Shown: positions 29,988 to 45,226 of the stretch, piece by piece | How positions within the stretch are numbered: the stretch's first letter is position 1 | Layout: each line of letters begins with the position of its first letter | Origin: Aquitalea magnusonii | GTDB taxonomy: Bacteria > Pseudomonadota > Gammaproteobacteria > Burkholderiales > Chromobacteriaceae | Reading direction: 5' to 3' | Assembly (NCBI RefSeq): GCF_002217795.2 | Contig: NZ_AP018823.1 | Coordinates: 1,364,001 to 1,428,000 of the forward strand | Length of the DNA: 64,000 bases | Position numbers and translations under genes: made by a program | The notes under the pieces: model-generated | The model's database searches: none | What the model saw: only the letters and a program-made list of their open reading frames with translations | What the model was told of the DNA's origin: nothing

Positions 29988-30335
29988 TCAGGGCTGATGG
30001 TAGCTCAGACTGTCTGGCGGAGCCTGCTTGCGGTCGTGCAAACCGTAATCCCTCTCCACCGTGGCCACGCGCAAGCGGTAAGCCGCAAAGATGCCTGCGC
30101 GTCCCTGTTGCTGTGCCGCGCGGTGATGCTCCAGGCGGCGCCATTGCTCAACTGCGGCGGCATCTCGCCAAAAAGACAAGGACAGCAGTTTTCCTGGCTG
30201 ACTGAGGCTGGCAAAGCGTTCGATGGAGATGAATCCTTCGATATCCTGCAACAGCGGCCTGAGTGCTGCCGCCATGTCCAGATAGGTTTGCTGCGCACCG
30301 GCAGCCGCTTCCACTTCGAAAATGACAGCGATCAT
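29988..30335 (-). CDS. Antibiotic biosynthesis monooxygenase (ABM) domain protein
   Basis: A 115-residue protein of the dimeric ferredoxin-like ABM fold: MIAVIFEVEAAAGAQQTYLDMAAALRPLLQDIEGFISIERFASL, then LSLSFWRDAAAVEQWRRLEHHRAAQQQGRAGIFAAYRLRVA. ABM proteins are cofactor-free monooxygenases or heme-related enzymes. I start at ATG 30335, with GAGG upstream. The gene begins 11 bp after the P450 stop, so the two are co-transcribed and may act on the same molecule. Confidence 0.85.
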   Translation of the reverse strand: MIAVIFEVEAAAGAQQTYLDMAAALRPLLQDIEGFISIERFASLSQPGKLLSLSFWRDAAAVEQWRRLEHHRAAQQQGRAGIFAAYRLRVATVERDYGLHDRKQAPPDSLSYHQP

Positions 30336-30345
30336 CTCATGCACC

Positions 30346-31446
30346 TCATGCAGTGAATTCGGGAAGGCGGACATTGGCTGAGCGGCGCCAGGTGTGCCGT
30401 GGCAGGGGCTGGTCACTCAGCCCGTGCGCCAACAGATGTTCGATACCCGTCATGGCAATCAGCCGGGCCCACGTCGCACCGGGGCAGGCATGCGCGCCCG
30501 CGCCAAAGGCCAGATTCTGTGCCGCGTCGGCCGCCGGGCCTGCCAGCAGGAGTAATACCGGATCACCAGCCTGCAGCGCATAGCCAGCCAGACTGATCGG
30601 GCAGGACGCAAAGCGGCGCGTATTCTGGATGGGGGGCAAATCGCCCAGCACATGGCTAATCCATGCCGCAGCACTGCCTTGCCATCCGCCGGCCTGTCCT
30701 TGCAGTAATCCCTGTCCGATCAGCCCGGTTGTTCCTTCCGCCGCTTGAAACCACAGGCCAATGGCATTGGCTACCGTCCACTGCCTGGCCGTGTCAGGCA
30801 AGTCCTGCTTAGCCATGGCCTGGCACAGGGCCTGCAACAGCGGGCCGGGGGCATCCAGTTGACACTGCATGCGGCTGCTCAGCCGGGCGGCGGCAGCCAT
30901 GCCGACGGATATTTCTTCTGCACTGCCGCCGGGGGCCACGCAACGCACAAAGGCCAGCACATCATCAATGAGTTCCGCCCAGTGCGGTGCCGCAATGCCG
31001 AACAGCTTGGCCAGCACCAGGATGGGCAGCCCATCGTTAAAGCGGGTGAGCGATGCGCCATCCAGCGGCTGGGGCAGGGCAAACCAGCCGGCAATGTCCC
31101 GGCTTGCCTGGTAAACCGTCGCTTGCGGAATACTATCCAGGGCCTGCTGCACGGCTGTTTTGAGCGCCAGATGCACTGGGCCATCATTCATGCGGACCAG
31201 CCTGGCAAAAATTTCCCCAGCAACAGTCGCGGACAAGGCTGCGGGAACCGGCTCATGTGGCGGGCGGACCATCAGCGCGGGGCAGTGCAGTGCGCTGCGG
31301 ACGATGGCATTGGCGGCGGCGACCCAGCAGCGCCGCTCCTGATCAAAAACCATACCCTGGACGGACAAGGTCTGGTAATCGGCGCGTGGATCGTCCTTGG
31401 TTGCAGCCGCAATGGCATCTGGCAGGGTGGGGGGGGTGGTAAGCAA
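30346..31446 (-). CDS. Divergent cytochrome P450 lacking ExxR
   Basis: A 366-residue protein. The heme-ligand loop FGAGAHACPG places Cys321 correctly, and AAEGTTGLIG matches the I-helix. Two conserved features are missing. Where P450s carry ExxR before PP..TRRFA, this one reads WISHVLGDLPPIQNTRRFA. The 25 or so residues of the meander between the K-prime region and the heme loop are also deleted. I choose a TTG start at 31446, with AAGGAG 6 nt upstream, over a GTG ten codons earlier. It is upstream of the ABM gene and divergent from an ArsR regulator. Confidence 0.83.
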   Translation of the reverse strand: MLTTPPTLPDAIAAATKDDPRADYQTLSVQGMVFDQERRCWVAAANAIVRSALHCPALMVRPPHEPVPAALSATVAGEIFARLVRMNDGPVHLALKTAVQQALDSIPQATVYQASRDIAGWFALPQPLDGASLTRFNDGLPILVLAKLFGIAAPHWAELIDDVLAFVRCVAPGGSAEEISVGMAAAARLSSRMQCQLDAPGPLLQALCQAMAKQDLPDTARQWTVANAIGLWFQAAEGTTGLIGQGLLQGQAGGWQGSAAAWISHVLGDLPPIQNTRRFASCPISLAGYALQAGDPVLLLLAGPAADAAQNLAFGAGAHACPGATWARLIAMTGIEHLLAHGLSDQPLPRHTWRRSANVRLPEFTA

Positions 31447-31519
31447 GCGTCTCTCCTTGGTAACAAGCAGCGTCACGATAAGGCTGGTTGCGCGGTGATG
31501 CTTCGCTTACCATCGAAAT

Positions 31520-32203
31520 ATGGATGAAGCGCATTTTGAAACCCAACTGGCCGCCTTGGCTGCCGCCATTGGCGAACGCACGCGGGTGCGCATATTGTGC
31601 GCACTGATGGATGGCCGCGCCTATACCGCAACCGAATTGAGCACGGTGGCCGATGTCACTGCCTCAACGGCGAGCAGCCACCTGGCGCGGCTGCAGCAGC
31701 AGCGCCTGATCGACTGTGTGCCGCAGGGCAGGCATCGTTACTTCCGGCTGGCCAGCGTGCAGGTGGCCGAAGCGCTGGAAAAGCTGATGGGGCTGGCGGG
31801 GAGCGAGCCGATCACCCCGCGCAGCAAGACCCCGCAACGCTTGCGTTTTGCCCGTACCTGCTATGACCACATGGCCGGGGAGCTTGCCGTGGCCCTGCAT
31901 GACCGACTGTGCCGCCAGGGCTGGCTGGATGCGCAACATTACACCCTGAGTGCCGCCGGTTTGCAGGCCCTGCAAGGCATCGGCTTATCGCTGGAAGCCA
32001 TACCTGCACAGCGCAAGTTTGCCTGTGCCTGTCTGGACTGGAGTGAGCGCCGCCCGCATCTTGGTGGCCACTTGGGCGCAGTGTTGCTGCAGGCATTTGA
32101 GAAACAGCGGTGGGTGGTGCGCCAACTGGATAGCCGCGCCTTGCAACTGACAGCCAGTGGCAAGAGGGCCTTGCAGGCGCATTTTGATTTGCTTCTCCCG
32201 TAA
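31520..32203 (+). CDS. ArsR-family regulator (divergent from the P450-ABM pair)
   Basis: A 227-residue protein. The winged helix lies at about residues 10-85 (RVRILCALMDGRAYTATELSTVADVTASTASSHLARLQQQRLI). A C-terminal extension of about 130 residues is longer than the minimal ArsR core and resembles the larger ArsR-like regulators that sense organic ligands. No metal-binding ELCVCDL-type cysteine motif is present. It starts very close to CCATCGAA at 31510, a motif also found near the other ArsR gene. Probably a repressor of the divergent P450. Confidence 0.88.
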   Translation: MDEAHFETQLAALAAAIGERTRVRILCALMDGRAYTATELSTVADVTASTASSHLARLQQQRLIDCVPQGRHRYFRLASVQVAEALEKLMGLAGSEPITPRSKTPQRLRFARTCYDHMAGELAVALHDRLCRQGWLDAQHYTLSAAGLQALQGIGLSLEAIPAQRKFACACLDWSERRPHLGGHLGAVLLQAFEKQRWVVRQLDSRALQLTASGKRALQAHFDLLLP

Positions 32204-32470
32204 AGGGCGGCCGGGCCGGGCTGCTGTCGGGCATGGCCTCCACACAGGATGGACGGCTGTGTACGGGCGGGATTGCCCGCGGCGCTGCGCGCCAGCAGGG
32301 CAAGCACAATCGTGTCGGTAAACCTCGCTGGTGTTGCTGCTCAGGCCGGGCATCCAGGCTGTTGGCAATGCCTGTCACATGGCAGCCTCAGTCGCAGACA
32401 ATACGCGCAGCCCCCGGTAGTCGTCCCCGCGGTACACCGCACGCGCGCGTTTGCAGCGCCGGTCGCGATG

Positions 32471-32794
32471 TCATGGCTGGGTATCTTTTTCCTGCAGAAT
32501 CAGCCCAAGCAAGCCGGGAAAGCGTTGCTCAATATCCTGGCGGCGCAACTGGGCCATGCGGCTGTTGCCACGATCCACCTGACGGATCAGGCCGGCTTCG
32601 CGCAGGATGCGAAAATGGTGTGAGCGCGTGGCCTTGCTTAACTGCAAGCCGAACGAAGTGCAATGCCGCTCGGCATCTTCCACATCTTCCAGCAGTGCCT
32701 TGACCACCCGGCGGCGTGTCGGGTCCGCCAGTGCCATCAATACTTTACCCAGTTCAATTTCATCCCGGTCAGGGTGGCCTTGCTCATCTGGCAT
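32471..32794 (-). CDS. ArsR-family regulator (divergent from afsA)
   Basis: A 107-residue winged-helix protein: VLMALADPTRRRVVKALLEDVEDAERHC and LQLSKATRSHHFRILREAGLIRQVDRGNSRMAQLRRQDIEQRFPGLL. It has the ArsR size and fold without the metal cysteine pair. The gene is divergent from the AfsA operon with a 159-bp intergenic region that holds a perfect palindrome at the predicted afsA transcription start, so it is the best candidate repressor or signal sensor of that operon. Confidence 0.88.
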   Translation of the reverse strand: MPDEQGHPDRDEIELGKVLMALADPTRRRVVKALLEDVEDAERHCTSFGLQLSKATRSHHFRILREAGLIRQVDRGNSRMAQLRRQDIEQRFPGLLGLILQEKDTQP

Positions 32795-32817
32795 TCATTC
32801 CTCTCCAAAAAATTCAT

Positions 32818-32847
32818 TTGACATATTGTATGGCGCTGTTCTATAAA
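32818..32847 (+). promoter_or_regulatory. Predicted sigma-70 promoter of the afsA operon
   Basis: TTGACA at 32818-32823 and TATAAA at 32842-32847 are separated by 18 bp, a near-consensus promoter. Transcription would begin near 32854, at the left arm of the palindrome at 32853-32872 and about 100 bp before the afsA ATG. Confidence 0.6.
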
Positions 32848-32852
32848 GCACT

Positions 32853-32872
32853 GGTTCGAAGATATTCGAACC
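32853..32872. promoter_or_regulatory. Perfect palindrome GGTTCGAA-GATA-TTCGAACC (candidate ArsR operator)
   Basis: Eight-bp arms around a 4-bp spacer, covering the predicted afsA start site. It lies 81 bp before afsA and 59 bp before the divergent ArsR gene. Overlap with +1 fits repression. A related TTCGATGG element follows at 32873-32880. Confidence 0.6.
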
Positions 32873-32953
32873 TTCGATGGGTGTCAAACCATACGCGCAT
32901 GATGATAGTGCGAGTTGCGAAATCTTGTGCACTTTAAGAACAGGAGTTGATCG

Positions 32954-34003
32954 ATGAAGATTGATCTTGGCTACGCCTCGCCGGGTCTGGCTTACGAAAG
33001 CACCGTTCCGCGACATATGGTGCACCGCGCAGCAGTCAGCGAAGTGTTTCTGACCGGCGGGCTGCCCTGCAGTGATCTGCACTTTCAGTGCAGCGCGCAA
33101 TTACCGCGTGCGCATCGCTATTTTAGTGATCACACCCACCCGCAGTCACACTATGACATGCTGCTGTTGCTGGAGGTATTCCGTCAGGCTTCGATTTATA
33201 TTGCCCACGCCTTTCTGAAGGTCAGCATGCAGGACAAATTCATCTATCTGGATAGCGATACCCGGCTGCTGCAACGCTCCGCGCTGTTGATGCGCGATTG
33301 CCCCGCCACCGCGCTGGTGGATGTGAAAGTGGTGGATGAATATGTGCGCAACGGCGTGCGCGCCGGGGTGACGCTGGACATGAGCTTGCTGATCCAGGGG
33401 GAGGCCGCCGCACACAAGCGCATGGGCATCCGCTGGATGGATGAGGCCAGTTGGAAGCGCATGCGGGCCAAGGCCATGCATAAAGTCATCGTCAATGCCG
33501 ACCCGCAGATTCAGCGCCCGGCACCGGCCCAACCCTCGCTGGTGGGGCGGGCCTATGCCGGTAATGTGGTGGTGGGGGCGCATATCCAGGAGCAGGATGG
33601 CGCGTTGACCGTTCCGGTGATTGTCGATCAGGGCAATGCCGGCATTTTCGACCATCCGCTCGATCACATTCCCGGCATGTTGCTGCTGGAAGCCTTCCGC
33701 CAGACCGCGCTGATTGCCGCCAACCGTTACCAGGGCATCAATCCGGAAGAGGTGCTGCTGTCGCGCTGCCAGGTGCGCTTCACCCGCTTTGGCGAATTCG
33801 GCCTTGCCACCAGTTGCCGCCTGACCAGCGATGCAGTCTGCCTGGCTGACGATCATGAAACGGTGCTGATGTCCTTGTTGATCGAGCAGGAAGGCCAGGT
33901 GATTGCCACCGCTTCGCTGGAGCTTGCTGCGCTGGCCGCTGCTGCCGATGTGCGCCTGACCGCGCCGCTGTCGCTGACACAAACGCAGCCAGCAGGGGTG
34001 TGA
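32954..34003 (+). CDS. AfsA-family double-hotdog protein (A-factor/gamma-butyrolactone synthase-like)
   Basis: A 349-residue protein with two copies of the AfsA hotdog domain. Copy 1 (about 15-180) has the HMVHRAAVSEVFLT entry and LLLLEVFRQ at 70-78; copy 2 (about 199-345) has HPLDHIPGMLLLEAFRQ at 234-250. AfsA/ScbA/BarX enzymes join a beta-ketoacyl chain to dihydroxyacetone phosphate, the first step toward gamma-butyrolactone signals in Streptomyces; MmfL makes furan signals. AGGAG precedes the start. It heads an operon with a HAD phosphatase, P450 and exporter. Family match is strong; the product in this organism is unknown. Confidence 0.88.
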   Translation: MKIDLGYASPGLAYESTVPRHMVHRAAVSEVFLTGGLPCSDLHFQCSAQLPRAHRYFSDHTHPQSHYDMLLLLEVFRQASIYIAHAFLKVSMQDKFIYLDSDTRLLQRSALLMRDCPATALVDVKVVDEYVRNGVRAGVTLDMSLLIQGEAAAHKRMGIRWMDEASWKRMRAKAMHKVIVNADPQIQRPAPAQPSLVGRAYAGNVVVGAHIQEQDGALTVPVIVDQGNAGIFDHPLDHIPGMLLLEAFRQTALIAANRYQGINPEEVLLSRCQVRFTRFGEFGLATSCRLTSDAVCLADDHETVLMSLLIEQEGQVIATASLELAALAAAADVRLTAPLSLTQTQPAGV

Positions 34004-34004
34004 G

Positions 34005-34685
34005 ATGCGTACTCCGAAGATGATCTGGTTTGATTTTGGCGGCGTGCTGTCTCCGCCCATTCCCGCCTTGTTCCAGCAATACCAACAAAAGACCGGCCTG
34101 GCCCCGGCGCAATTGCAGCAAGCCATGCGCGATGTGGCCGCCCAGATGGCACTGCCGATGCTGGCCCCGGTGGAAAATGCCGTCATCAGTGAGGCGGAGT
34201 GGGGCCGGCGGCTGGAAAACGCCTTGCGCATGCGTCATCCCGAAATTGACCTGTCCCGCGCCCGGCTGCGCGAATTTGGCGCGCAGTGGTTTGCCGGGGT
34301 CAGCCCGAACCGGACCATGCTGCAGGCGGTGCGCCAGTTGAAAGCCGCTGGCTATCAGGTGGGCATTCTCACCAACAATGTGCTGGAGTGGGAGCCACAC
34401 TGGCGAGCCATGTTGCAACTGGACAGCGTGGTGGAGCTGGTGGTGGATTCATGCAAGGAAGGCTGCCGCAAACCCGATGCCCGCTTTTTTGCCATTGCGG
34501 CGCAACGGGCGGCGGTTCAGCCCGCTGACTGCCTGCTGATCGACGATGTGCAAGAGAATATCGAAGCGGCGGCCAGCCTGGGCTGGCACACCCTGTGGTT
34601 CCAGGATAATGCCCAGACACTGCTGGAGCTGGAAAACATCACCAGGGTGGCCCTGCGTGAGCACATGGAGCTGGCCGCAATATGA
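34005..34685 (+). CDS. HAD-IA family hydrolase (phosphatase-like)
   Basis: A 226-residue haloacid-dehalogenase-fold protein. Motif I is IWFDFGGVLS with nucleophile Asp10; the usual second Asp is Gly, as in several HAD-IA phosphatases. GILTNN is motif II, DSCKEGCRKPDARFF gives the Lys of motif III, and LLIDDVQENIEAA is motif IV. Its start is 1 bp after the afsA stop. A phosphatase is just what an AfsA pathway needs to remove the phosphate left by dihydroxyacetone phosphate, the role of MmfP in methylenomycin furan synthesis. Confidence 0.88.
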   Translation: MRTPKMIWFDFGGVLSPPIPALFQQYQQKTGLAPAQLQQAMRDVAAQMALPMLAPVENAVISEAEWGRRLENALRMRHPEIDLSRARLREFGAQWFAGVSPNRTMLQAVRQLKAAGYQVGILTNNVLEWEPHWRAMLQLDSVVELVVDSCKEGCRKPDARFFAIAAQRAAVQPADCLLIDDVQENIEAAASLGWHTLWFQDNAQTLLELENITRVALREHMELAAI

Positions 34686-35899
34686 ACGCTCCTGTCTCTG
34701 CCTTGGCACCGGTATGGGTTGGCGACATCCCGCAACTGGATGCCGCCGCGGTATACCACGCCACCAGCCCGGCCAACGGCATGGCCCGCATCATCTTGCC
34801 CAGCGGCCATGTGGCATATCACCTGACCCGCTATCACGAAGTGCTGCAAGTGCTGACCGATGCCCGCTTTGTGCGGCGGCCCTGCAATACCGAGGATGGG
34901 CCAAGCTTTCTGCCCACCATCACGCCCAATGAGCTGTTACTGAACAATGATGGTGCCAGCCATGCGCGCTTGCGCAAGGTGGTGGCGAAGGATTTCAGCG
35001 CCGCCGGGGTGGCGACACTGCGCGATACGGTGATACAGGCCACCCATGCCAGGCTGGATGCGCTGTCGTCGCAGACGGGCGTGATTGATTTGCTGGACCT
35101 GGTGCTGGAATGCATTCCAGCAGAAGTGGATTGCCATTTGCTGGGCATCCCGCTGGCGGATCGCAGTTATTACCGGCCATTGACCCATACCGTGCAGATT
35201 GCCGATCCGCGTGATGTACCCGAGTTGTTGCGCCAGTTCTGGCTGGTATATGACTACCTGATGGATCTGGTGACCGGCCGCCGTACCACCGCCCCCCACG
35301 GGCTGATTCGCCGCTTTGTCGCCGCCCGGCACGAAAGTGTGCCGCCGCTGAACGATGAAGAACTGGTGGGGATTCTGCTGGGCATTCTGATCGGCGGCGA
35401 TCAGAACATCCTGACCGTGCTGTGCAAGGTGGTTTATACCCTGCTGGCGGCACCAGCCTTATGGCAGTCGCTGCGCGCGCAGCCGGCAACCCTCCCCGCC
35501 ATGGTGGAAGAACTGCTGCGGCTGATTCCGCTGGGGACCACCTCCACCTTTCCCCGCATCGCCAGTGAAGGTGTCCATGGCAGCTTTGGTTTCATTCCGG
35601 CAGGCAGCGTGGTGTATGCCGATGTGTTTGCCGCCAATCGGGATCCCGCAGTATTTGCCGATCCCTTGCGGATTGATCCACAACGCAATGCCAGCAAGCA
35701 TTTGCAGTTTGGTTACGGCATGCATCACTGCATGGGTGCCGCACTGGCGCGCATGGAAATCACCACCGTGCTGGAGATCCTGCTGCAGCGCATGCCGGAC
35801 TTGCAACTGGCGCAGCCCGCCGCCAGCGTGCCATGGACCCACGGCACCATTCTGCGCAGACCCGCATCCCTGCCGGTCTGCGGATTAACCCTTCGCTAA
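34682..35899 (+). CDS. Cytochrome P450 of the AfsA operon
   Basis: A 405-residue soluble class I P450. ExxR is present as E277-R280 in VEELLRLIP, and the heme loop FGYGMHHCMG places Cys350. The I-helix reads LIGGDQNILTVL; the conserved acid-alcohol pair (usually E/D-T) is Q-N, which may alter oxygen activation. The start overlaps the HAD stop by 4 bp. It probably hydroxylates or desaturates the AfsA-derived product, as Cyp17 does in avenolide synthesis; it needs ferredoxin partners from elsewhere. Confidence 0.92.
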   Translation: MNAPVSALAPVWVGDIPQLDAAAVYHATSPANGMARIILPSGHVAYHLTRYHEVLQVLTDARFVRRPCNTEDGPSFLPTITPNELLLNNDGASHARLRKVVAKDFSAAGVATLRDTVIQATHARLDALSSQTGVIDLLDLVLECIPAEVDCHLLGIPLADRSYYRPLTHTVQIADPRDVPELLRQFWLVYDYLMDLVTGRRTTAPHGLIRRFVAARHESVPPLNDEELVGILLGILIGGDQNILTVLCKVVYTLLAAPALWQSLRAQPATLPAMVEELLRLIPLGTTSTFPRIASEGVHGSFGFIPAGSVVYADVFAANRDPAVFADPLRIDPQRNASKHLQFGYGMHHCMGAALARMEITTVLEILLQRMPDLQLAQPAASVPWTHGTILRRPASLPVCGLTLR

Positions 35900-35918
35900 T
35901 CAGGAAACGAGAATTATC

Positions 35919-37448
35919 ATGCAGCAATCCATTGCAGACAAAGGACTGCTGGCCATCATTTTGCTGGCCATCTTTGTCGTGCCCAGTTCCATTTCCGGTA
36001 CTGCCGTTGCACTGCCTGCCATTGGTCTGGACATCCATGCTCCGTTGACCAGCCTGCAGTGGGTGGTGAATGCCTTCAACCTGACCTTTGCCTGCTTCAC
36101 CCTGTCCTGGGGGGCCGTGGCGGATAATTTTGGCCGCAAGACCTGCTTCAGCCTGGGTGCGGTGTTGTATGCGCTGGCGTCCCTGTTGTCGGCGCTGGCC
36201 GACAGCCCCATGCTGCTGGATTTGTCGCGGGCGCTGGCAGGCATTGGCGCGGCTGCGGTGTTTTCCTGCGGCATTGCCATTCTGTCCACCCGCTTCGAAG
36301 GGGCCGCCCGCTTGCGGGCCTTTGCCCTGTTTGGCACGGTGGCCGGTCTGGGGGTAAGCCTGGGGCCCACCCTGTCCGGGGTGATTCTGGAGCATTTCAG
36401 CTGGCGCGCCATCTTCTGGTGCCACACTCTTGCCTTGCTGCTGGTCTTGCTGGGCAGCGCCATCATTCCGCGCGATCTTCCCGCGATCGGGCAGCGGCTG
36501 CAGTTTGATACCGTGGGGGCCAGCCTGTTCATTCTGCTGCTGCTGGCGCTGATGACCGCCATCGTACAAAGCTCGCAATGGGGCTGGAACAGTCAGGGCA
36601 TCCTGCTGCTGCTGGCGCTGGCCGTGGCCACGCTGGCGTTGTTTATCTGGCAGGAAAAGCGCCACCCCAATCCCATGCTGGATCTGTCCTTGCTCACCAA
36701 TCAGCGTTTTGTCGGCATGGCACTGGTGACGGTGGCGGCATCCTTCGGCTTTGTCACCTTGCTTACCTATCTGCCCAGCTATCTTGGCGGTGTGCTGCAA
36801 CTGGCCCCCACCCGCACCGGGCTGACCATGCTGCTGCTCACCCTGCCCATGCTGATCTGCCCGCTGCTGGCAGGCAAGCTGGTGGCCCATGGCGTATCTG
36901 CCAACCGTGTGCTCAATGCCAGCCTGCTCAGCCTGTTGTTGGGCATCATCTTGCTGGCCGCTTTCAGCAATCCGTCCAGCACTTGGTGGCAACTGGCCTT
37001 GCCCATGCTGCTGTTGGGCTGCGGCATGGGCCTGTCAGCAGGGCTGGTGGATGGGATGGCGCTGAAGATGGTGCCGGCGGAAAAAGCCGGCATGGCTGCC
37101 GGCTTGCTCAATACCTTCCGCCTGGGCAGCGAGGCGGTGGCCGTGGCGCTGTACGGTTCCTTGCTGGCTACGCTGCTGGGCGATGCGGCACATGGAGCGC
37201 TGACCACCTTGAGCAGCAATGCAGAGCAAATACATGGTTGGATCAATGCCGCGGCGGCCGGCAATCTGGCAGCGCCCGCGCCGATGGCGCTGGCCAGTCA
37301 GTTGCAGAGCATTCTGATCAAGGGCTATGACCAGGCTTTTCATGGCGTGTTGTGGCTCTTGGCCGCCATCATCCTGCTACTTACCGGGCTGATTGCCTGG
37401 CTGATCCGCCCGGCCATGCCGGCCACCGAGGCCAGCCAGCCTTTGTAG
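35919..37448 (+). CDS. DHA2-type MFS exporter of the AfsA operon
   Basis: A 509-residue permease with about 14 membrane helices. LSWGAVADNFGRKTCFSLGAV is the MFS loop 2-3 signature and a DHA2 drug:proton antiporter pattern follows. It starts 20 bp after the P450 stop with AGGAAACGAG upstream and is likely the last gene of the operon. Placing an exporter with synthesis genes suggests the product is secreted. An export role for a drug-like compound is also possible. Confidence 0.9.
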   Translation: MQQSIADKGLLAIILLAIFVVPSSISGTAVALPAIGLDIHAPLTSLQWVVNAFNLTFACFTLSWGAVADNFGRKTCFSLGAVLYALASLLSALADSPMLLDLSRALAGIGAAAVFSCGIAILSTRFEGAARLRAFALFGTVAGLGVSLGPTLSGVILEHFSWRAIFWCHTLALLLVLLGSAIIPRDLPAIGQRLQFDTVGASLFILLLLALMTAIVQSSQWGWNSQGILLLLALAVATLALFIWQEKRHPNPMLDLSLLTNQRFVGMALVTVAASFGFVTLLTYLPSYLGGVLQLAPTRTGLTMLLLTLPMLICPLLAGKLVAHGVSANRVLNASLLSLLLGIILLAAFSNPSSTWWQLALPMLLLGCGMGLSAGLVDGMALKMVPAEKAGMAAGLLNTFRLGSEAVAVALYGSLLATLLGDAAHGALTTLSSNAEQIHGWINAAAAGNLAAPAPMALASQLQSILIKGYDQAFHGVLWLLAAIILLLTGLIAWLIRPAMPATEASQPL

Positions 37449-37574
37449 ACTGGTGAACCGGACCAGGCGTGTCATGTGGATTGGCACTGCCTGGTTGTGC
37501 CGTGTAACAAGACTGATCCTGCCATGTGGTAGCAGCATGCTGTGCTATCTGGCCACATAACTGTCGGGGGCTGC

Positions 37575-37820
37575 ATGTCCAAGTTAGTCATTGATGATGG
37601 AAAAGTGTTGCTTGATCCGCTGCGGCTGAAAAAATTGCGCAAAAGCAAATGCTTCAGTCAGGACGACCTGGCCAGGCATGCCCGCAACAGCCGCTGTCCG
37701 GTTTCCTCCGCCTCGATCAAACGTGCCGAACTGGGCTCGCCGGTACGCTACCGCACTGCCAAGAACCTGGCCTTGGCGCTGGAGGTGGAAGTGGACAGCC
37801 TGTTTGCCTGCGTGGAGTAG
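37575..37820 (+). CDS. Small XRE-type helix-turn-helix protein
   Basis: An 81-residue protein: LDPLRLKKLRKSKCFSQDDLARHARNSRCPVSSASIKRAELGSPVRYRTAKNLALALEVEVDSLF, a lambda-repressor-like DNA-binding domain with no extra domain. I start at ATG 37575; upstream codons to 37542 are in a poor context. It sits between the AfsA operon and the unrecognised 355-residue gene and could regulate either. Confidence 0.78.
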   Translation: MSKLVIDDGKVLLDPLRLKKLRKSKCFSQDDLARHARNSRCPVSSASIKRAELGSPVRYRTAKNLALALEVEVDSLFACVE

Positions 37821-37923
37821 TCAGCCTGCTGCCGTTATCTGCTACCGCTTTGATATTTATCTGATACCAAAATGATGCGGATCTGATGCTGCAAATAATT
37901 TCGCCATTTTTTATATTTAATAG

Positions 37924-37937
37924 GCTGATGACTCAGC
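37924..37937. promoter_or_regulatory. Short dyad GCTGA-TGAC-TCAGC in front of the 355-residue gene
   Basis: Five-bp arms with a 4-bp spacer, 28 bp upstream of the start at 37965, in AT-rich promoter-like sequence. It is a possible site for the adjacent XRE-type regulator; evidence is symmetry and position only. Confidence 0.35.
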
Positions 37938-37964
37938 ATATTATTCATTTTGGAGAAATTTGAA

Positions 37965-39032
37965 ATGGCACAGACTTACAATATCTATGTAATCAATAAA
38001 TCGGCAGATACTCAGAATTTCTGGTTGTTCCTGAAGCCACCGCAAGCCCTGGAGGCTGATCCGGCGGTATTCGCCAATTCCAGCGCTTGCCTGACCATCG
38101 ATAGTAATTCACAAAGCTTGAATAATTTTGGCGTGCCGCTGCAATACCGGGTGGGCGCTGGTGCCAGCAATCAGGCCGTGGGCCTGGATGTGCAGATTTC
38201 TTCCAATGTCTCGCTGAATGCCGAGATTAACCAGGCCTTCCTGGCCAATTATCAGCAAACGGTGCCGCCCAAAAAAGGGCCAACCATGAAACAAACCGGT
38301 GCTGCCACCAAGGATGGCACCATTCAGATTACCAGCAATAATTTTGATAAACCCGGCAACGAAGAAAATAGCTGGTTTTCCAATATGAGTTTCGGTATTC
38401 AATCGGCTGCCGGCTTTATTGGCATGACTTGGTCGCCGGCACCGGGCGTAACCCGTACCCTGGAGCCAAAGTTTTCTTTTTATATCAGCACCGGCTCCTT
38501 CGATTACAACGCCCTGGCGCAATGGACGGATGTCGCCAGCCAGGCGGCTACCGTGCAACTGTCTGACTTCAAGCAATTCAATTGCACGGTGACGCTGCTG
38601 CCCAATGGCACATGGACCGTCACCCCCGGCCGTCCGCCGCAGCAAGTTTCTGCCCAGGCTTATCAGGCACTGGTTAGCAGCCATCAGGCACTGTGCAATT
38701 CCCATGCCGAACTGATCAGCCTGGCGAATGTGGTGGCTCCGCAGACGGACGAACCGCTTGCCACTGCGCAACTGGATCTGATTACCGAAGTGGACTGGAG
38801 TGATCAGCTCAAAGCCGCCGATGGCCTGCTTACCTTCTTGTCCGGCCGTCTGCGAGTGGGTACTGCCTTGGCGGCTGGTTTTGGCTTTTTCATCCTCAGC
38901 GGGGTGCGCTTTACCATCAAGAACGGTGGCGCGGGCGGCACGCAATTCGACTTTGAATACAACGGCACCAAGAGTGCCCAAAACATCAAGGAGCTGCTGC
39001 ACGCCGGCGTAGAGGCGGAGTTTCATAAATAA
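37965..39032 (+). CDS. Unrecognised 355-residue protein, own transcription unit
   Basis: I do not recognise the family with certainty. The protein has no signal peptide or lipobox. It is rich in Asn, Ser, Thr and Gln with beta-strand patterns, for example TYNIYVINKSADTQNFWLFLKPP and GVTRTLEPKFSFYISTG. A Gly- and Ala-rich hydrophobic stretch (LAAGFGFFILSGVRF, about residues 302-316) lies near the C-terminus. TGGAGAAATT precedes ATG 37965. A strong terminator follows and the upstream region is AT-rich, so it is a monocistronic gene. A structural, lectin-like or insect/host-interaction role is possible, but this is only a guess. Confidence 0.7.
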   Translation: MAQTYNIYVINKSADTQNFWLFLKPPQALEADPAVFANSSACLTIDSNSQSLNNFGVPLQYRVGAGASNQAVGLDVQISSNVSLNAEINQAFLANYQQTVPPKKGPTMKQTGAATKDGTIQITSNNFDKPGNEENSWFSNMSFGIQSAAGFIGMTWSPAPGVTRTLEPKFSFYISTGSFDYNALAQWTDVASQAATVQLSDFKQFNCTVTLLPNGTWTVTPGRPPQQVSAQAYQALVSSHQALCNSHAELISLANVVAPQTDEPLATAQLDLITEVDWSDQLKAADGLLTFLSGRLRVGTALAAGFGFFILSGVRFTIKNGGAGGTQFDFEYNGTKSAQNIKELLHAGVEAEFHK

Positions 39033-39088
39033 ACCTGCCCATCACTGATTGATCTGCCCGGCTTGATGGCAGCTTAATCGCGATCAGC

Positions 39089-39465: not shown

Positions 39466-40380
39466 CTATGCGGTGCTGGTGTCTGCTTTTTTAGCGTTGG
39501 CACCCAGTTGCCACAGCAGTGTTTGACGCGCGTGCGCAACGCGCGGCTTGCGTAATTTACTTGGCAACCAGATCAGGTAATAGCGGATTTCGGTGTGGCC
39601 CAGCGGGGGGGGAATTTCTTCCAGTTCACCGCTGTGCAGCTGGGATTGGCACAGATAGTGCGGCAGCAGCGTCCAGCCAAAGCCTTGGCTCAGCAGGCTG
39701 CGCAAGCCTCGCAGATCCTGGCCGGTAAGTGCGGGAATCAGACCGGGCGCATGAATACGGTTTTTTTCCAGCCAGTGGTCAATCAGGGAGCGCTCCAGAT
39801 TGTAAGCCAGCAAGGGTTCAGCCTGCAGCGCCTGTCCCAGATCCTGGGCAGTTCTCAGTCGTCGGGCAACTTCGGGCGCAGCCACCAGCAGAATCCGGTC
39901 ACTCAGGATCAGTTCTCCCTTCAGCCGGGCATCCGTGACTGGGTGAGCGGAGAAGCCCAGGTCGTAGTGTTCCTCCAGCAACATCTGCGTCACCATCGGC
40001 CCATCGCCAGCATGCAGTCGAACGCGGATGTCCTCTTTGAGCAAGGGGACGAGGGCAGGCGCCAGCTTTTCCGCCAGGAAGTCGGCATGACCGATGATGT
40101 GCAGATTGCCGGCGATATCCGCCGAACGTGCTCGCGCCGTGGACAGCGCCGCCTCTGCCGCATCCAGCTTGTCGCCGATATCCGCAGCCAGTTCATCTGC
40201 CGCAGCAGTCGGTAGCACGCCCTGGCTTTGCCTTTCGAACAAGGGCCGCCCGATGGCCACTTCCAGACCGGCTATATGCTGCGACACCGCCGGCTGGGTC
40301 AGGTTAAGGCTTCTGGCGGCACCACTGATTGAGTGCTGTCGGTATACCTCGACAAAAGTTCTGAGACGAACGAGTGACAT
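39466..40380 (-). CDS. LysR-family regulator of the ohr operon
   Basis: A 304-residue LTTR. The N-terminal winged helix (SLVRLRTFVEVYRQHSISGAARSLNLTQPAVSQHIAGLEVAIGRPLFER) is followed by a periplasmic-binding-like effector domain (about 90-295). I start at ATG 40380; an upstream extension lacks the LTTR pattern. It is divergent from ohr with 115 bp between. Most ohr genes are controlled by MarR-type OhrR, so LysR control here is uncommon. It may sense an aldehyde or peroxide. Confidence 0.92.
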   Translation of the reverse strand: MSLVRLRTFVEVYRQHSISGAARSLNLTQPAVSQHIAGLEVAIGRPLFERQSQGVLPTAAADELAADIGDKLDAAEAALSTARARSADIAGNLHIIGHADFLAEKLAPALVPLLKEDIRVRLHAGDGPMVTQMLLEEHYDLGFSAHPVTDARLKGELILSDRILLVAAPEVARRLRTAQDLGQALQAEPLLAYNLERSLIDHWLEKNRIHAPGLIPALTGQDLRGLRSLLSQGFGWTLLPHYLCQSQLHSGELEEIPPPLGHTEIRYYLIWLPSKLRKPRVAHARQTLLWQLGANAKKADTSTA

Positions 40381-40407
40381 GGCTTGCCCATAAAAAAAAT
40401 TATACCC

Positions 40408-40431
40408 CCGCCAAAATACCCTTGTTGGCGG
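40408..40431. promoter_or_regulatory. Inverted repeat between lysR and ohr (candidate LTTR site)
   Basis: CCGCCAA at 40408-40414 and TTGGCGG at 40425-40431 are exact 7-bp arms around 10 nt. Position between the divergent genes and size fit a LysR-type recognition site. Confidence 0.5.
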
Positions 40432-40495
40432 CCAGATACCAGTCTCCCCTATGATTTCCCCATCGCAGAAATGCACACCAATCAAGGGGATAACC

Positions 40496-40927
40496 ATGTT
40501 GACTAATATTCTGTATCAAACTGAAGCCACTGCAACCGGCGGCCGTGATGGCTATGCCCGCACCCGCGATGGCTCGCTGAATATCTGGCTGGGCCTGCCG
40601 CGCGAACTGGGCGGCAAGGATGTTGGCAATAACCCGGAACAATTGTTTGCAGCCGGCTATGCCGCCTGCTTTCTGAGTGCCATGAAGACAGTGTCCGCCC
40701 TGAGCAAGGGCGCGCATCCCAAGGTGCCGGACAATGCCCGCGTCACCGCCCAGGTGGGGATTGGTCTGCGCAGCGAAGGCGGCTATGGCCTGGCCATCAG
40801 CCTGAGCATTGAATTGCCTGGTGTTGCGCGGGAGCAGGCGGAGGCGCTGGTAGCCACCGCCCATGCCACCTGCCCATATTCGAATGCAGTACGCGGCAAT
40901 ATCGACGTTGCACTGCAGGTAATCTGA
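40496..40927 (+). CDS. ohr: Organic hydroperoxide resistance protein (Ohr/OsmC family)
   Basis: A 143-residue Ohr: TGGRDGYARTRDGSLNIWLGLPRELGG at the N-terminus, Cys58 in AAGYAACFLSAM and Cys126 in ATCPYSNA are the two redox-active cysteines that reduce organic and fatty-acid hydroperoxides. AAGGGGATAACC precedes ATG 40496; an earlier in-frame ATG lacks a ribosome site. It starts the operon with aldehyde dehydrogenase and DJ-1/PfpI, which clear aldehydes made by lipid peroxidation. Confidence 0.95.
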   Translation: MLTNILYQTEATATGGRDGYARTRDGSLNIWLGLPRELGGKDVGNNPEQLFAAGYAACFLSAMKTVSALSKGAHPKVPDNARVTAQVGIGLRSEGGYGLAISLSIELPGVAREQAEALVATAHATCPYSNAVRGNIDVALQVI

Positions 40928-40966
40928 TTCCCCGCTCCAACTGGCCCAACTCAAGAGAAACCGTAT

Positions 40967-42385
40967 ATGGACACCCAAACTCCACAAGACTTGCACCACA
41001 TCCTGCAGGCAATGAAGAAAGCGCAACTGGCCGCAGGCCCGGCCAGCCTGGAGCTGCGGCGTGATCGCCTGCAGCGTAGCGTACGGCTGATCCAGGAAAA
41101 CCATCAGGCACTGGCGGATGCCATCAGCGCCGACTTTGCCCACCGCAGCCAGTATCAAACACTGCTGGTCGACATGGTGACTACCATCAAGGGTTTGCAA
41201 TATGCCGCCGCGCATGTTGGTGAGTGGATGCGCCCGCAAGTGGTGGAAGCGGGCACCCCTGGCATGCAGGCCCGCATCGAACAACAAGCCCTGGGGGTGG
41301 TGGGGGTCATCAGCCCGTGGAATTTCCCCATCAACCTGGCATTCGGTCCGCTGGCCGGGGTGTTTGCCGCCGGTAATACCGCCATGCTCAAACCATCGGA
41401 ACTGACACCGCGCACCTCGGACTTGCTGGCCGAACTGGTGGGGCAGTACTTTGCCCCGGATGAACTGGTGGTGGTGCAAGGCGATGCCGATATTGGCCGC
41501 GCATTCAGTGCCTTGCCGTTCGATCATCTGGTGTTTACCGGCAGCACGGCAGTGGGCAAGCATGTGATGCGGGCTGCGGCTGAAAATCTGGTGCCAGTCA
41601 CCCTGGAGCTGGGTGGCAAATCCCCGGTAGTGATAGATGAGGATGCGGATCTGCAGACCGCCATCGCCCGCACGCTCACCATCAAAGCCTTCAATGCCGG
41701 CCAAATCTGCCTGTCACCGGATTACCTGCTGCTCACCCCAGCACACCGTCCCGGTTTGGTAGATGCTGCACGCAGATTTGTTGCCAACAGCTACCGCAGT
41801 TTTCAGGATAATCCGGACTATACGGCCATCATCAGCCCGCAGCATTTCGCACGGCTGCAAGGCTTGCTGGACGATGCGCGGGCAAAAGGCGCCACCGTCA
41901 TCAGCCTGGCTGCGCCAGGGGAGGCAGATGCTGACCCCCATGGCAGAAAGATGGCTCCGCACCTGGTGCTGGATGTCACCGACGACATGGCCATCATGCA
42001 AGAAGAGATTTTTGGCCCGCTGCTGCCGGTGATGAGCATTCCCAGCTTTGATGCCGCGCTGCAATACATCAATGCACACCCGCGCCCACTCGCGGCCTAC
42101 TACTTTGGCCATCAGCAGGACAAACAGCAACGCTTTAGCCTGCAGACGACATCCGGTGCCGTGGTGATCAATGATGTGATGACACATGCCGCCATCGACA
42201 GTCTGCCCTTCGGCGGCGTGGGTGCCTCCGGCATGGGGGCCTATCACGGTATTCACGGCTTCAAACGCTTTAGCCACGCCAAGGCTGTGGTGGTGCAAAG
42301 CGAGGATGGCGCATCGAATCTGCGTCTGCGCGCTCCGCATCAAGACGGTTTGGCAGCAATCAAAGCCTTCTTGCAAACCGCATGA
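40967..42385 (+). CDS. NAD(P)-dependent aldehyde dehydrogenase (coniferyl-aldehyde-dehydrogenase-like)
   Basis: A 472-residue enzyme. VVGVISPWNFPINLAFGPLAGVFAAGN and FTGSTAVGKHVM form the cofactor region, Glu214 lies in TLELGGKSP, and the catalytic Cys248 lies in GQICLSPDYLL. CalB-type enzymes with this short form oxidise coniferyl or other aromatic and medium-chain aldehydes. Within the ohr operon it more probably detoxifies aldehydes from lipid peroxidation. It starts 39 bp after ohr. Confidence 0.9.
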   Translation: MDTQTPQDLHHILQAMKKAQLAAGPASLELRRDRLQRSVRLIQENHQALADAISADFAHRSQYQTLLVDMVTTIKGLQYAAAHVGEWMRPQVVEAGTPGMQARIEQQALGVVGVISPWNFPINLAFGPLAGVFAAGNTAMLKPSELTPRTSDLLAELVGQYFAPDELVVVQGDADIGRAFSALPFDHLVFTGSTAVGKHVMRAAAENLVPVTLELGGKSPVVIDEDADLQTAIARTLTIKAFNAGQICLSPDYLLLTPAHRPGLVDAARRFVANSYRSFQDNPDYTAIISPQHFARLQGLLDDARAKGATVISLAAPGEADADPHGRKMAPHLVLDVTDDMAIMQEEIFGPLLPVMSIPSFDAALQYINAHPRPLAAYYFGHQQDKQQRFSLQTTSGAVVINDVMTHAAIDSLPFGGVGASGMGAYHGIHGFKRFSHAKAVVVQSEDGASNLRLRAPHQDGLAAIKAFLQTA

Positions 42386-43210: not shown

Positions 43211-43993
43211 CTAATAGGCCAGCGCATGGCTTATGCTGACGGGAAAGATTAAATTCAATCCTGAAGTTGACAGAATTTCACACTGCACCCCATATACTTG
43301 AGAGATATTGTCATTGTTTAATACCTCGGCAGTATTTCCCTCCGCAAAAACACCGCCATTGTGCAGTAAGATGGAGCGGTCTGCATATTGGCTTGCCAGA
43401 TTAAGATCGTGCAGAACCGCAATGGTGATGATGTTTTTCTCACGGGTGTAATTGGCAACAACCGAAAGCAGATGAATTTGGTTTGCGATGTCAAGAGCAG
43501 AGGTAGGCTCATCCAGAAGTAGGATTTCAGGCGCGCTGATCAACGCCAATGCCAGTGAAACCAACTGACGTTGCCCACCTGACATTTTCTCCGGATATTG
43601 ATGAGCCAGGTCTTCAATACCCAACATGGACAGCATGGCTATTGCCGATTGCAAACATTCATCCTGCACGCTCCAGCCTGCAAACCTGCCTTGCTGGGCC
43701 AGTAGCAGTAACTCGAATGTGGTTAGTTTTACATTATTGAAATGATCTGTCTGTCCTGCGTAACCAATATACTTGCTACGTGCAACCGGGTTGTGGCTTG
43801 TTATATCCTTGTTGTCTAATCGCAGCGTGCAGTTGCAGTTAATTAAGCCGGCAATTGATTTTATAATGGTCGATTTGCCCGCCCCGTTTCTGCCCAGAAT
43901 GGCAAGCGTCTCACCACGGTGTGCATTGAAATCCACCTGGTTCAGAATATTCAAGCTGCCAAATTTTACATTTAAGTTATTCACTGCAAGCAC
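43211..43993 (-). CDS. FecE-type ABC transporter ATPase (iron-siderophore)
   Basis: A 260-residue ATPase. GRNGAGKST is Walker A, MSGGQRQLVSLA the signature, and ILLLDEPTSALD Walker B; the protein matches BtuD/FecE-type ATPases of metal-chelate importers. It follows the FecCD permease by 2 bp. It powers uptake of ferric siderophore or a similar chelate. The operon is AT-richer than its surroundings. Confidence 0.92.
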   Translation of the reverse strand: MLAVNNLNVKFGSLNILNQVDFNAHRGETLAILGRNGAGKSTIIKSIAGLINCNCTLRLDNKDITSHNPVARSKYIGYAGQTDHFNNVKLTTFELLLLAQQGRFAGWSVQDECLQSAIAMLSMLGIEDLAHQYPEKMSGGQRQLVSLALALISAPEILLLDEPTSALDIANQIHLLSVVANYTREKNIITIAVLHDLNLASQYADRSILLHNGGVFAEGNTAEVLNNDNISQVYGVQCEILSTSGLNLIFPVSISHALAY

Positions 43994-43995
43994 AA

Positions 43996-45087
43996 TCAGA
44001 TTCCTCGTCTTTTATTGATGACTAGCCACAGGAAAAATGGAACACCAATTAATGATGTCACCATGCCGATGGGAAGTATCACGCCAGGGAAAATGACCTT
44101 GCTCAGTATGGATGCCATGGTCATCATCACTGATCCGGTGAGGGCAGTAATAATCAAGGCAAATCGCTGATCTTCACCAACTAATATTTTGGTTACATGG
44201 GGCGCAACCAGGCCAATAAATCCAACGATGCCAATGGTTGAGGTAATGCAGCCGGCGATCAGTGCTGAGAGCAGTAACAGTAGCATCCTGATTCTTTTTA
44301 CCGGAATGCCAAATGTAATTGCATTGTCACCAAAGGCGCGGAGTGCGGAAATCTTCCAGGAATGAAAAAATATTATAGGCAGGGATAAAAATACCACGGC
44401 GCAATTGATATACACTTTGGTCCAGTTTGTTTTTGCTAATGAGCCCATGCTCCAAAAAATCAAAGATTGCAACTGGTCGGCGTCGGCAATGTATTGCGTA
44501 ATACCAAGAAGCGAGCTGAAGATGAAATGAATTGCTATTCCAAGCATAACAATCATTTCAATACTGAAATCTCTTCTGGTGGCAAAAAACGCTATCATCA
44601 GCACCGTCATCAGTGAAAATGAAAATGCGTTAAGCATGATCACATATTCAATCGGTATTCCGATCAGGCCGATAATCGAGGTTTGAAATACAATAGCGAT
44701 CGCCGCACCAAATCCTGCTGCGGCAGAAATTCCTAGGGTGAATGGCTCCGCCAACTGGTTGGCAAGCGCAGTTTGCATAAGTGATCCGGATATGGCCAAG
44801 CCCAAACCGGCAACAACCGCTGTCAATGTTATGGGCATCCGGATTTCCCACAGCACAACTTGTATCGCAGGGCTCACCTGGGACGGGTGAATAAGCCCAT
44901 TGCATACTTGGCTTATGTCCAATGTACCTGAGCCAATGGCAATGTCGGCAACTGCGCAGACTAGTAAAAGTACAGCCAGCACAACAAATACGAGTATTTT
45001 TTTTCTGATGCTGGCTTGGTAGCGTTTATGTATTGCGCGCTCTGGTGCTTGACTTGTTTCTAGCGAAACACACACATTTGAATTCAT
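43996..45087 (-). CDS. FecCD-family ABC permease (iron-siderophore)
   Basis: A 363-residue permease with about ten membrane helices, typical of the BtuC/FecCD family: ISGSLMQTALANQLAEPFTLGISAAAGFGAAIAIVF and GFIGLVAPHVTKILVG carry its conserved loops. It forms the inner-membrane channel with the FecE-type ATPase. Only one permease gene is seen, so it probably works as a homodimer, as BtuC does. It is separated from the binding protein by 139 bp containing a hairpin. Confidence 0.92.
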   Translation of the reverse strand: MNSNVCVSLETSQAPERAIHKRYQASIRKKILVFVVLAVLLLVCAVADIAIGSGTLDISQVCNGLIHPSQVSPAIQVVLWEIRMPITLTAVVAGLGLAISGSLMQTALANQLAEPFTLGISAAAGFGAAIAIVFQTSIIGLIGIPIEYVIMLNAFSFSLMTVLMIAFFATRRDFSIEMIVMLGIAIHFIFSSLLGITQYIADADQLQSLIFWSMGSLAKTNWTKVYINCAVVFLSLPIIFFHSWKISALRAFGDNAITFGIPVKRIRMLLLLLSALIAGCITSTIGIVGFIGLVAPHVTKILVGEDQRFALIITALTGSVMMTMASILSKVIFPGVILPIGMVTSLIGVPFFLWLVINKRRGI

Positions 45088-45188
45088 CTTGTCTCAAAAT
45101 TGTTCATGCCATGCAAGAATTGCAATATATGCAGTGAATATGCATGAGAATATATTGCACGCTTGACATGGCATCCGGGTAGGTGAGT

Positions 45189-45218
45189 GGCCTGTATTGT
45201 TTGCTAATCATACAGGCC
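45189..45218 (-). other. Intercistronic hairpin after the iron-binding-protein gene
   Basis: GGCCTGTAT at 45189-45197 and ATACAGGCC at 45210-45218 form an exact 9-bp stem, 8 bp downstream of the binding-protein stop. It lacks a T tract, so it is more like an mRNA-stabilising or partial stop structure that gives the binding protein more mRNA than the permease. Confidence 0.6.
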
Positions 45219-45226
45219 GGAATGAT

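Follow-up and report, generated by a model that had tools for sequence, protein, structure and literature searches.

An AfsA–phosphatase–P450–exporter operon of Aquitalea, its predicted butenolide product and a TonB-dependent receptor linked to its Pseudomonadaceae counterparts

Closest described systems and the Aquitalea operon

AfsA-type small molecules are classic hormones of Streptomyces. Here we describe, in a 64,000-nucleotide stretch of the Aquitalea magnusonii genome (contig NZ_AP018823.1; hereafter the window), an operon of four genes encoding an AfsA-family protein, a phosphatase of the HAD superfamily, a cytochrome P450 and an exporter of the major facilitator superfamily (MFS), which lies in a seven-gene block common to the window and two other Aquitalea. 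In the A-factor (AfsA-BprA-ArpA) and methylenomycin-furan (MMF; MmfLHP) systems of Streptomyces, outlined here largely from general background, an AfsA-family enzyme takes the first step, as it would here, and MMF also has a phosphatase. Unlike both, the Aquitalea block has no reductase and no TetR-family receptor, its regulators being an ArsR protein and a putative small helix-turn-helix (HTH) protein.

Articles given by PMC number are cited for those parts of their text that were available. The closest analogue in gene content, which an earlier reading of the window from its letters alone (the sequence-only reading) did not name, is the srrX-srrP-srrO set of Streptomyces rochei plasmid pSLA2-L, where srrP, srrO and srrX are orf83, orf84 and orf85 and SrrO oxidizes a butenolide side chain (PMC7564063). 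SrrX is the synthase of the S. rochei butenolides (SRB), and the role of SrrP is a proposed one (PMC7564063, PMC12301235). Likened by gene content only, the SRB genes place AfsA, phosphatase and P450 contiguously as in the window and yield an unsaturated butenolide, but their locus also has a linked dehydrogenase (SrrG), thioesterase (SrrH) and receptor (SrrA), none of which occurs in the Aquitalea block.

Among Gram-negative bacteria, an "A-factor-like" cluster listed in 2021 for Pseudomonas Ps664 contains AfsA, a hydrolase (HAD), a P450 and an MFS gene with no reductase, an annotation that names no product in the text available (PMC8719888). The sequence-only reading had singled out the presence of such an operon in a Gram-negative; the systems are indeed known mainly from Streptomyces, but the Ps664 listing already contains the same four kinds of gene. 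In Burkholderia gladioli, the AfsA (PBS) domain of gladiofungin and gladiostatin biosynthesis condenses dihydroxyacetone phosphate (DHAP) in vitro and the cluster has phosphatase genes (PMC7756420, PMC7756379), but that domain off-loads a modular polyketide synthase (PKS), whereas the window's AfsA is a stand-alone two-domain protein without one. A quorum-sensing-induced cluster of Chromobacterium subtsugae shares with the window an AfsA-domain gene, a HAD gene and a DHA2 pump and differs in its HAD-IB type, DUF2165, MarR and CdeAB-OprM (PMC12114271). AfsA is also found in putative metabolite clusters of Ruegeria pomeroyi DSS-3 (PMC7426152) and Pantoea ananatis ICEPan (PMC4458695), on megaplasmid or integrative elements, where by description its neighbors are other than those in the window. 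The parts of the Aquitalea locus are as follows.

32489..39038 (6.55 kb), no strand: seven-gene block common to the window and two other Aquitalea (blastn)
32471..32794, minus strand: ArsR-family regulator gene, divergent from the operon (PF01022)
32954..34003, plus strand: AfsA/ScbA-family protein, 349 residues, with AfsA domains at about 33017–33424 and about 33539–33922 and ExxRQ in each half
34005..34685, plus strand: HAD-superfamily phosphatase, 226 residues (Pfam; nearest PDB entry, the phosphatase half of soluble epoxide hydrolase)
34682..35899, plus strand: cytochrome P450, 405 residues (Pfam; heme Cys350 and ExxR)
35919..37448, plus strand: MFS exporter, DHA2-like, 509 residues (Pfam MFS_1)
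37575..37820, plus strand: putative HTH protein, 81 residues, within the shared block; only subthreshold HTH_31/HTH_3 and RstR matches
37965..39032, plus strand: 355-residue protein within the shared block; no Pfam match over threshold

The four genes are close-packed, with junctions of +1, −4 and +19 bp, and the first encodes a double AfsA domain, as the sequence-only reading had proposed. The search that it suggested for the 349-residue protein gave a Pfam AfsA match of 144.3 bits (cut-off 24) in two stretches, well above the family threshold, and the NCBIfam model ScbA_BarX_GamBu scored 210.2 bits (cut-off 200). The grouping of this enzyme with a phosphatase, a P450 and an exporter was likewise borne out by family matches to each frame: PF00702 at 56.5 bits, Pfam p450 at 69.9 bits and MFS_1 at 149.3 bits, all over their cut-offs. 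The exporter stayed under the cut-off of the DHA2/EmrB model TIGR00711 (166.6 versus 230.2 bits), and the ArsR protein matched PF01022 at 34.9 bits (cut-off 22). The whole genome contains two AfsA-domain matches, both in the gene at 32954–34003. The ratio of nonsynonymous to synonymous change (dN/dS) was 0.05–0.22 for all seven block genes in comparison with the two other Aquitalea loci, indicating that these frames are under purifying selection.

Pseudomonadaceae counterparts and their linked receptor

The operon recurs in a distant family. Among 398 Pseudomonadaceae genomes, 19 matched AfsA at E 1e-3, four of them strongly (<1e-100) and the other 15 with short matches of 20–38 bits, mostly within frames of about 1150 residues. 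In the genus of genome G477 the matches were 1 of 25 (G477 itself), and in the genus of G740 they were 8 of 337 at E 1e-30, one of which had been counted before. We fetched the 11 strong loci, comprising nine complete operons, a truncated locus (L106) and L056. All nine complete loci have the AfsA-HAD-P450-MFS order of the window. Their AfsA proteins are 57–61% identical to that of the window, and in three of the loci identities are 64–67% for HAD, 67–68% for P450 and 66–67% for MFS.

In all nine, FecI and FecR genes come after the operon, and a divergent gene for a receptor with STN, plug and barrel domains faces it; past the receptor, the same nine loci have a class II aldolase, a family-3 solute-binding protein (SBP_bac_3) and a permease. 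The receptor, FecR and FecI assignments come from Pfam for L053–L055 (FecR of L055 by tblastn only) and from tblastn for L100–L105, and the nine loci represent two genera, eight belonging to g295 and L054 to g289. L106 ends inside afsA at a contig end and still has afsA, receptor and aldolase adjoining. Thus the nine Pseudomonadaceae loci, and Ps664 as far as a gene listing allows the comparison, are like the window in AfsA, HAD, P450 and MFS, but the nine have FecR-FecI, a TonB-dependent transducer, a class II aldolase and an ABC importer where Aquitalea has ArsR, the HTH gene and the 355-residue protein.

We searched the same 398 genomes with the receptor at E 1e-100. It matched 107 genomes, and among the matches listed only G747, G740 and G477 reached an identity of at least 67%, the next being 48%; these three are exactly the genomes of the 398 with the four-gene operon. 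The search scored the two best first-look candidates per genome, so an orthologue could be missed. Six of the next-best receptors belong to FecI-FecR-receptor cassettes without AfsA, HAD, P450 or MFS matches. At the same threshold G431, the genome with an AfsA-HAD fusion, gave no orthologue, and none was found in 10 Aquitalea genomes, where the best match was 47.5 bits over part of the protein (23.7 bits in the window's own genome). In the Pseudomonadaceae sampled so far, this receptor thus goes with the operon.

In four related cassettes (L087, L088, L091 and L092; receptors 45–48% identical), the adjoining genes resemble, by eye, genes for binding proteins of the betaine and/or sulfonate type; surface signaling there may serve organic nutrients instead of iron.

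The pairing of an AfsA operon with a FecI-FecR-TonB receptor is what is new here; among the matches listed, we found no such pairing in the open-licence literature. For Pseudomonas ABC1, a butyrolactone cluster and many FecI genes have been reported and are not linked in the available text (PMC8085936).

Predicted pathway, product and sensing

On balance, the four genes probably make and export a small butenolide. In the scheme predicted from the protein families, AfsA would condense DHAP with a beta-ketoacyl thioester, which would come from primary fatty-acid synthesis, as the block holds neither a ketosynthase nor an acyl carrier protein (ACP). The adduct would close to a phosphorylated 2-acyl-3-hydroxymethylbutenolide, the HAD enzyme would take off the phosphate, the P450 would oxidize the ring or the side chain and the MFS transporter would export the product, which may be a signal, an antibiotic or both. 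In vitro, an AfsA-like domain has converted 3-ketooctanoyl-NAC and DHAP to a phosphorylated butenolide (PMC7756379). The sequence-only reading had reported no BprA-type reductase and no ArpA-like receptor, and neither occurs among the seven block genes, the rest of the genome not having been searched; by eye, no reductase or TetR gene was noticed beside the operon in L053, L054 and L055 either. With no linked reductase, the ring would remain unsaturated, as in the SRB and gladiostatin butenolides. Of the three products previously offered for this locus, a butenolide is the most likely and a furan the next, and the lack of a linked reductase makes a saturated butyrolactone the least likely.

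The active sites of the first two enzymes are well kept. Residues E74, R77, Q78, E246, R249 and Q250 of AfsA were invariant in all 17 aligned proteins (that of the window and 16 chosen from 92 homologues), and all 12 operon loci retain the ExxRQ residues, which we take to be catalytic, in each half of the protein. The AlphaFold model of AfsA is a double hotdog (pLDDT 82, pTM 0.83). Acyl thioesterases make up most of its top PDB matches: the best is a putative one (Foldseek E 1e-11), and enzymes acting on acyl-ACP are among those that follow. HAD residues D10, T123, K156 and D180 are kept in the same 12 loci. Three of the 92 homologues (P0019, P0042 and P0050) carry AfsA and HAD fused in a single chain, and the two genes adjoin in two Streptomyces plasmid loci (L017 and L018); these fusions and neighbors tie the phosphatase to AfsA chemistry.

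An AfsA-HAD fusion, a frame of 619 residues, occurs in Pseudomonadaceae locus L056 (8772–10631), with a ScbA match of 225.4 bits, over the cut-off, and a HAD-1A3 match of 100.5 bits, under the cut-off of 125.4. L056 has no P450 or MFS match nearby, and its neighbors resemble conjugation genes by eye.

Several points weigh against a butenolide or against parts of the route to it. According to a study of the SRB system, the sequence of an AfsA homologue is a poor guide to the type of signaling molecule (PMC12301235), and a dehydrogenase or ketoreductase is believed to be required as well in the SRB and SAB pathways, SrrG and SabD, respectively (PMC7564063, PMC7756379). No gene of the SrrG/SabD type is among the seven of the block. 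The product is itself only a prediction, and the scheme leaves the HTH and 355-residue proteins of the block unexplained. The HAD enzyme lacks the second motif-I aspartate, its motif DFGGVL having glycine at D+2 in 12 of 12 loci and likewise in two Streptomyces proteins; YihX, a weak PDB match to the HAD protein, is presumably an active phosphatase that also has glycine two residues after its nucleophile. The best PDB match of the P450 is MycG, whose I-helix AGYES reads GGDQN in all 12 loci. As both residues of what we take to be the acid-alcohol pair are replaced, simple hydroxylation is not assured and the change may mean an unusual oxidation.

It is a real possibility, somewhat short of an even chance, that the cell surface is where the product, once exported, is sensed or taken up again, the linked TonB-dependent transducer being its receptor in Pseudomonas and acting via FecR and FecI, and that Aquitalea lost the transducer or replaced it with ArsR. 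This would account for FecR-FecI and the receptor flanking all nine complete operons in two genera, for afsA and receptor being neighbors also in the truncated locus, for the restriction of close receptors to the three operon genomes and for the aldolase, SBP_bac_3 and permease that follow in the same nine loci. Adjacency does not equal binding, however, and these genes may serve transport and simply have been inherited along with the operon; most of the nine loci come from a single genus, only two candidates per genome were scored, and neither Aquitalea nor G431 has yielded an orthologue. More tentatively still, we propose the full sequence of events: Gram-negatives would make a butenolide with AfsA and export it through the MFS protein, and a dedicated TonB-dependent transducer would bind it and signal via FecR and FecI, with Aquitalea as a branch that uses ArsR sensing. 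The same genes could instead handle an iron siderophore or other metallophore exported by the MFS protein and retaken through the receptor, which we regard as very unlikely. We take synthesis, MFS export, FecI-FecR and a TonB receptor together to be the layout of many metallophore loci. An acyl butenolide would have no obvious chelating group, though, Aquitalea has no linked receptor, and the related cassettes in four loci adjoin the betaine- or sulfonate-type genes noted above. Surface signaling of this kind has been described for iron carriers (PMC9249621), but a scan for the Fur consensus in the 18 intergenic regions of the nine loci, which cover the FecI and afsA/receptor promoters, based on crude consensus counting and base shuffles, gave no clear site in 17, their best match being equaled by at least 54 of 200 shuffles, and a marginal one in a region of L105 (12/19 matches, met by 10 of 200). 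The power of the scan is unproven, as none of six related FecI genes gave a clear upstream site either (best, L092 with 12/19, met by 16 of 200).

The nature of the product allows further readings. An antibiotic or interference compound, for which the MFS pump would double as self-protection, is somewhat unlikely as a separate explanation and overlaps with an exported butenolide; the pump of the R. pomeroyi DSS-3 afsA cluster may have such a double role. A regulator next to an exporter is, to our understanding, a common resistance-type layout. The killing of competitors by R. pomeroyi DSS-3 requires its afsA gene (PMC7426152), and the gladiofungin and gladiostatin butenolides are bioactive (PMC7756379), but the DSS-3 cluster differs by description in having further biosynthetic proteins, three regulators, a transporter and two hypothetical proteins. 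Quite unlikely is a 2-alkyl-4-hydroxymethylfuran-3-carboxylic acid of the methylenomycin-furan type, which would arise if the phosphorylated butenolide proposed above rearranged into a furan: AfsA and a phosphatase are the core of MmfL/MmfP, MmfL makes the same intermediate (PMC7756379), and sequence does not separate the two outcomes. The block, however, has a P450 and no reductase, whereas the MMF set presumably lacks a P450 and includes MmfH as its third enzyme. Least probable of the readings weighed here is classical gamma-butyrolactone signaling with its reductase and TetR receptor unlinked elsewhere in the genome. The NCBIfam gamma-butyrolactone equivalog takes in the window's AfsA, and the search for a reductase and an ArpA-type receptor was confined to the block, but the seven genes and the three Pseudomonadaceae loci inspected by eye revealed neither.

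Proposed regulation and distribution of the block

In Aquitalea, the region between arsR and afsA has two further features.

32818..32847, plus strand: sigma-70-like promoter facing afsA, with TTGACA at 32818–32823, an 18-bp spacer and TATAAA at 32842–32847 (read by eye from the sequence)
32853..32872, no strand: palindrome GGTTCGAA-GATA-TTCGAACC, directly past the −10 hexamer, a candidate ArsR operator

The divergent ArsR repressor would control the operon, probably through this palindrome, and the product or a pathway intermediate may lift the repression. The ArsR protein is 97% identical across 104 of 107 residues in both other Aquitalea loci (tblastn). The palindrome arms are a perfect 8 bp in the window and L012 and 7 bp in L011. 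Arms of at least 8 bp arose in 41 of 2,000 base shuffles of the same 159 bp, and the entire afsA-arsR intergenic region is well conserved among the Aquitalea loci, so the palindrome is only a candidate operator on modest evidence. The sequence-only reading had proposed ArsR-family rather than TetR-family sensing, which fits only the version found in Aquitalea, since in Pseudomonadaceae the nine complete loci have FecI-FecR and a TonB-dependent transducer alongside.

Within the window, DNA matching to the 20-kb loci of two other Aquitalea (L011 and L012, the latter on the same contig as L003, A. aquatica NZ_JACERN010000022.1) is limited to 32489–39038, at 87.5–89% identity (blastn, E 1e-5). The surroundings of the block in those two genomes are, by eye, alike each other and unlike those in the window. 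The four-gene operon at 32954–37448 previously delimited is real, but the shared unit is wider. The AfsA-HAD-P450-MFS order is the same in the window, L011 and L012, so the operon is conserved as a unit in relatives, in Aquitalea and Pseudomonadaceae alike; lack of such conservation would have refuted the sequence-only reading by its own terms. Across Chromobacteriaceae, the family for which a neighborhood comparison had been proposed, AfsA is rare: 3 of 10 Aquitalea genomes have it, as does 1 of the 51 other genomes searched, where the AfsA gene is a different one, which makes 4 in 61. The 355-residue protein is present in the same 3 Aquitalea genomes as AfsA. Standing at differing sites, the seven-gene block appears to have moved as a unit.

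The 355-residue protein has 60 homologues, with Leptolyngbya, Sphingomonas and Nannocystis among the named sources and other phyla represented, and its model (pLDDT 83, pTM 0.59) had a best Foldseek E of 4e-3 over 104 alignment columns. The second AfsA type of the family (L013, genome G026) is a 269-residue frame with one domain match and, by eye, a MarR-like gene near, perhaps like the C. subtsugae cluster.

Wider searches found AfsA to be sparse. A class-wide draw matched in 2 of 369 genomes, the window's own and one with a 22-bit partial match, and 156 of 72,556 plasmid records matched, 144 of them from Streptomyces and one from Klebsiella. The 92 AfsA homologues include proteins named from Pseudomonas, Paraburkholderia and Burkholderia. 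In an AfsA tree of 92 rows, the nine labeled Gram-negative, that of the window included, fall in one 35-row clade (support 98/95) in which 0 of the 34 rows labeled actinobacterial are found. The sequences were collected for their resemblance to the window, 49 rows are unlabeled, the fragment P0028 was dropped and each of the three fusions was trimmed to 340 residues; a program warning flagged long branches, including the Cedecea fusion P0050, whose placement within the clade has support of 85/64. A recent transfer from Streptomyces was considered and is unsupported, since the labeled Gram-negative rows form a clade without labeled actinobacteria.

The AfsA fragment P0028 bears the name of a microsporidian genome, in which it probably represents contamination by bacterial DNA. 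Weak AfsA matches in L038–L048 and L051 lie in frames of about 1140–1190 residues, which could be multidomain (PKS-type) proteins with an AfsA domain, a kind listed for Ps664 (PMC8719888).

The DNA around the block has features of its own. The left flank (30400–32300) is without a full DNA match in nine other Aquitalea. It includes a P450-like gene (30346–31476, minus strand) with a heme-type FGAGAHACPG motif by eye and a Pfam p450 score of 15.6 bits, below the cut-off, beside an ABM-family monooxygenase (29988–30416, minus strand) and a second ArsR gene (31520–32203, plus strand). Over 29988–32203 the nine genomes gave partial DNA only, in G009 (69% over 594 bases and two short matches) and G006 (72 bases). 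To the right, 39466–42385 contains a LysR gene and, by eye, OsmC-like and aldehyde dehydrogenase genes; a second copy, 90% identical, lies in the same genome (G000:C1:1275891-1278790) and an 86% copy in G005. Three genes at 43211–46366 resemble by eye an iron-siderophore-type ABC importer (ATPase, permease and binding protein); at the DNA level, neither of the two other 20-kb Aquitalea loci matches them.

The operon bears on the question of how far Gram-negative bacteria make and sense AfsA-type molecules. Its minimal set of four genes lacks a reductase and a TetR receptor and has the same order in two Gram-negative families that are distant from each other, so a single vector could suffice to reconstruct the chemistry. 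As the complete Pseudomonas loci pair the operon with a surface-signaling receptor, perception of such a molecule by a Gram-negative becomes directly testable. If the proposed transducer does bind the product, AfsA-type molecules would have a class of receptor with no relation to the TetR (ArpA) proteins that sense them in the Streptomyces cytoplasm.

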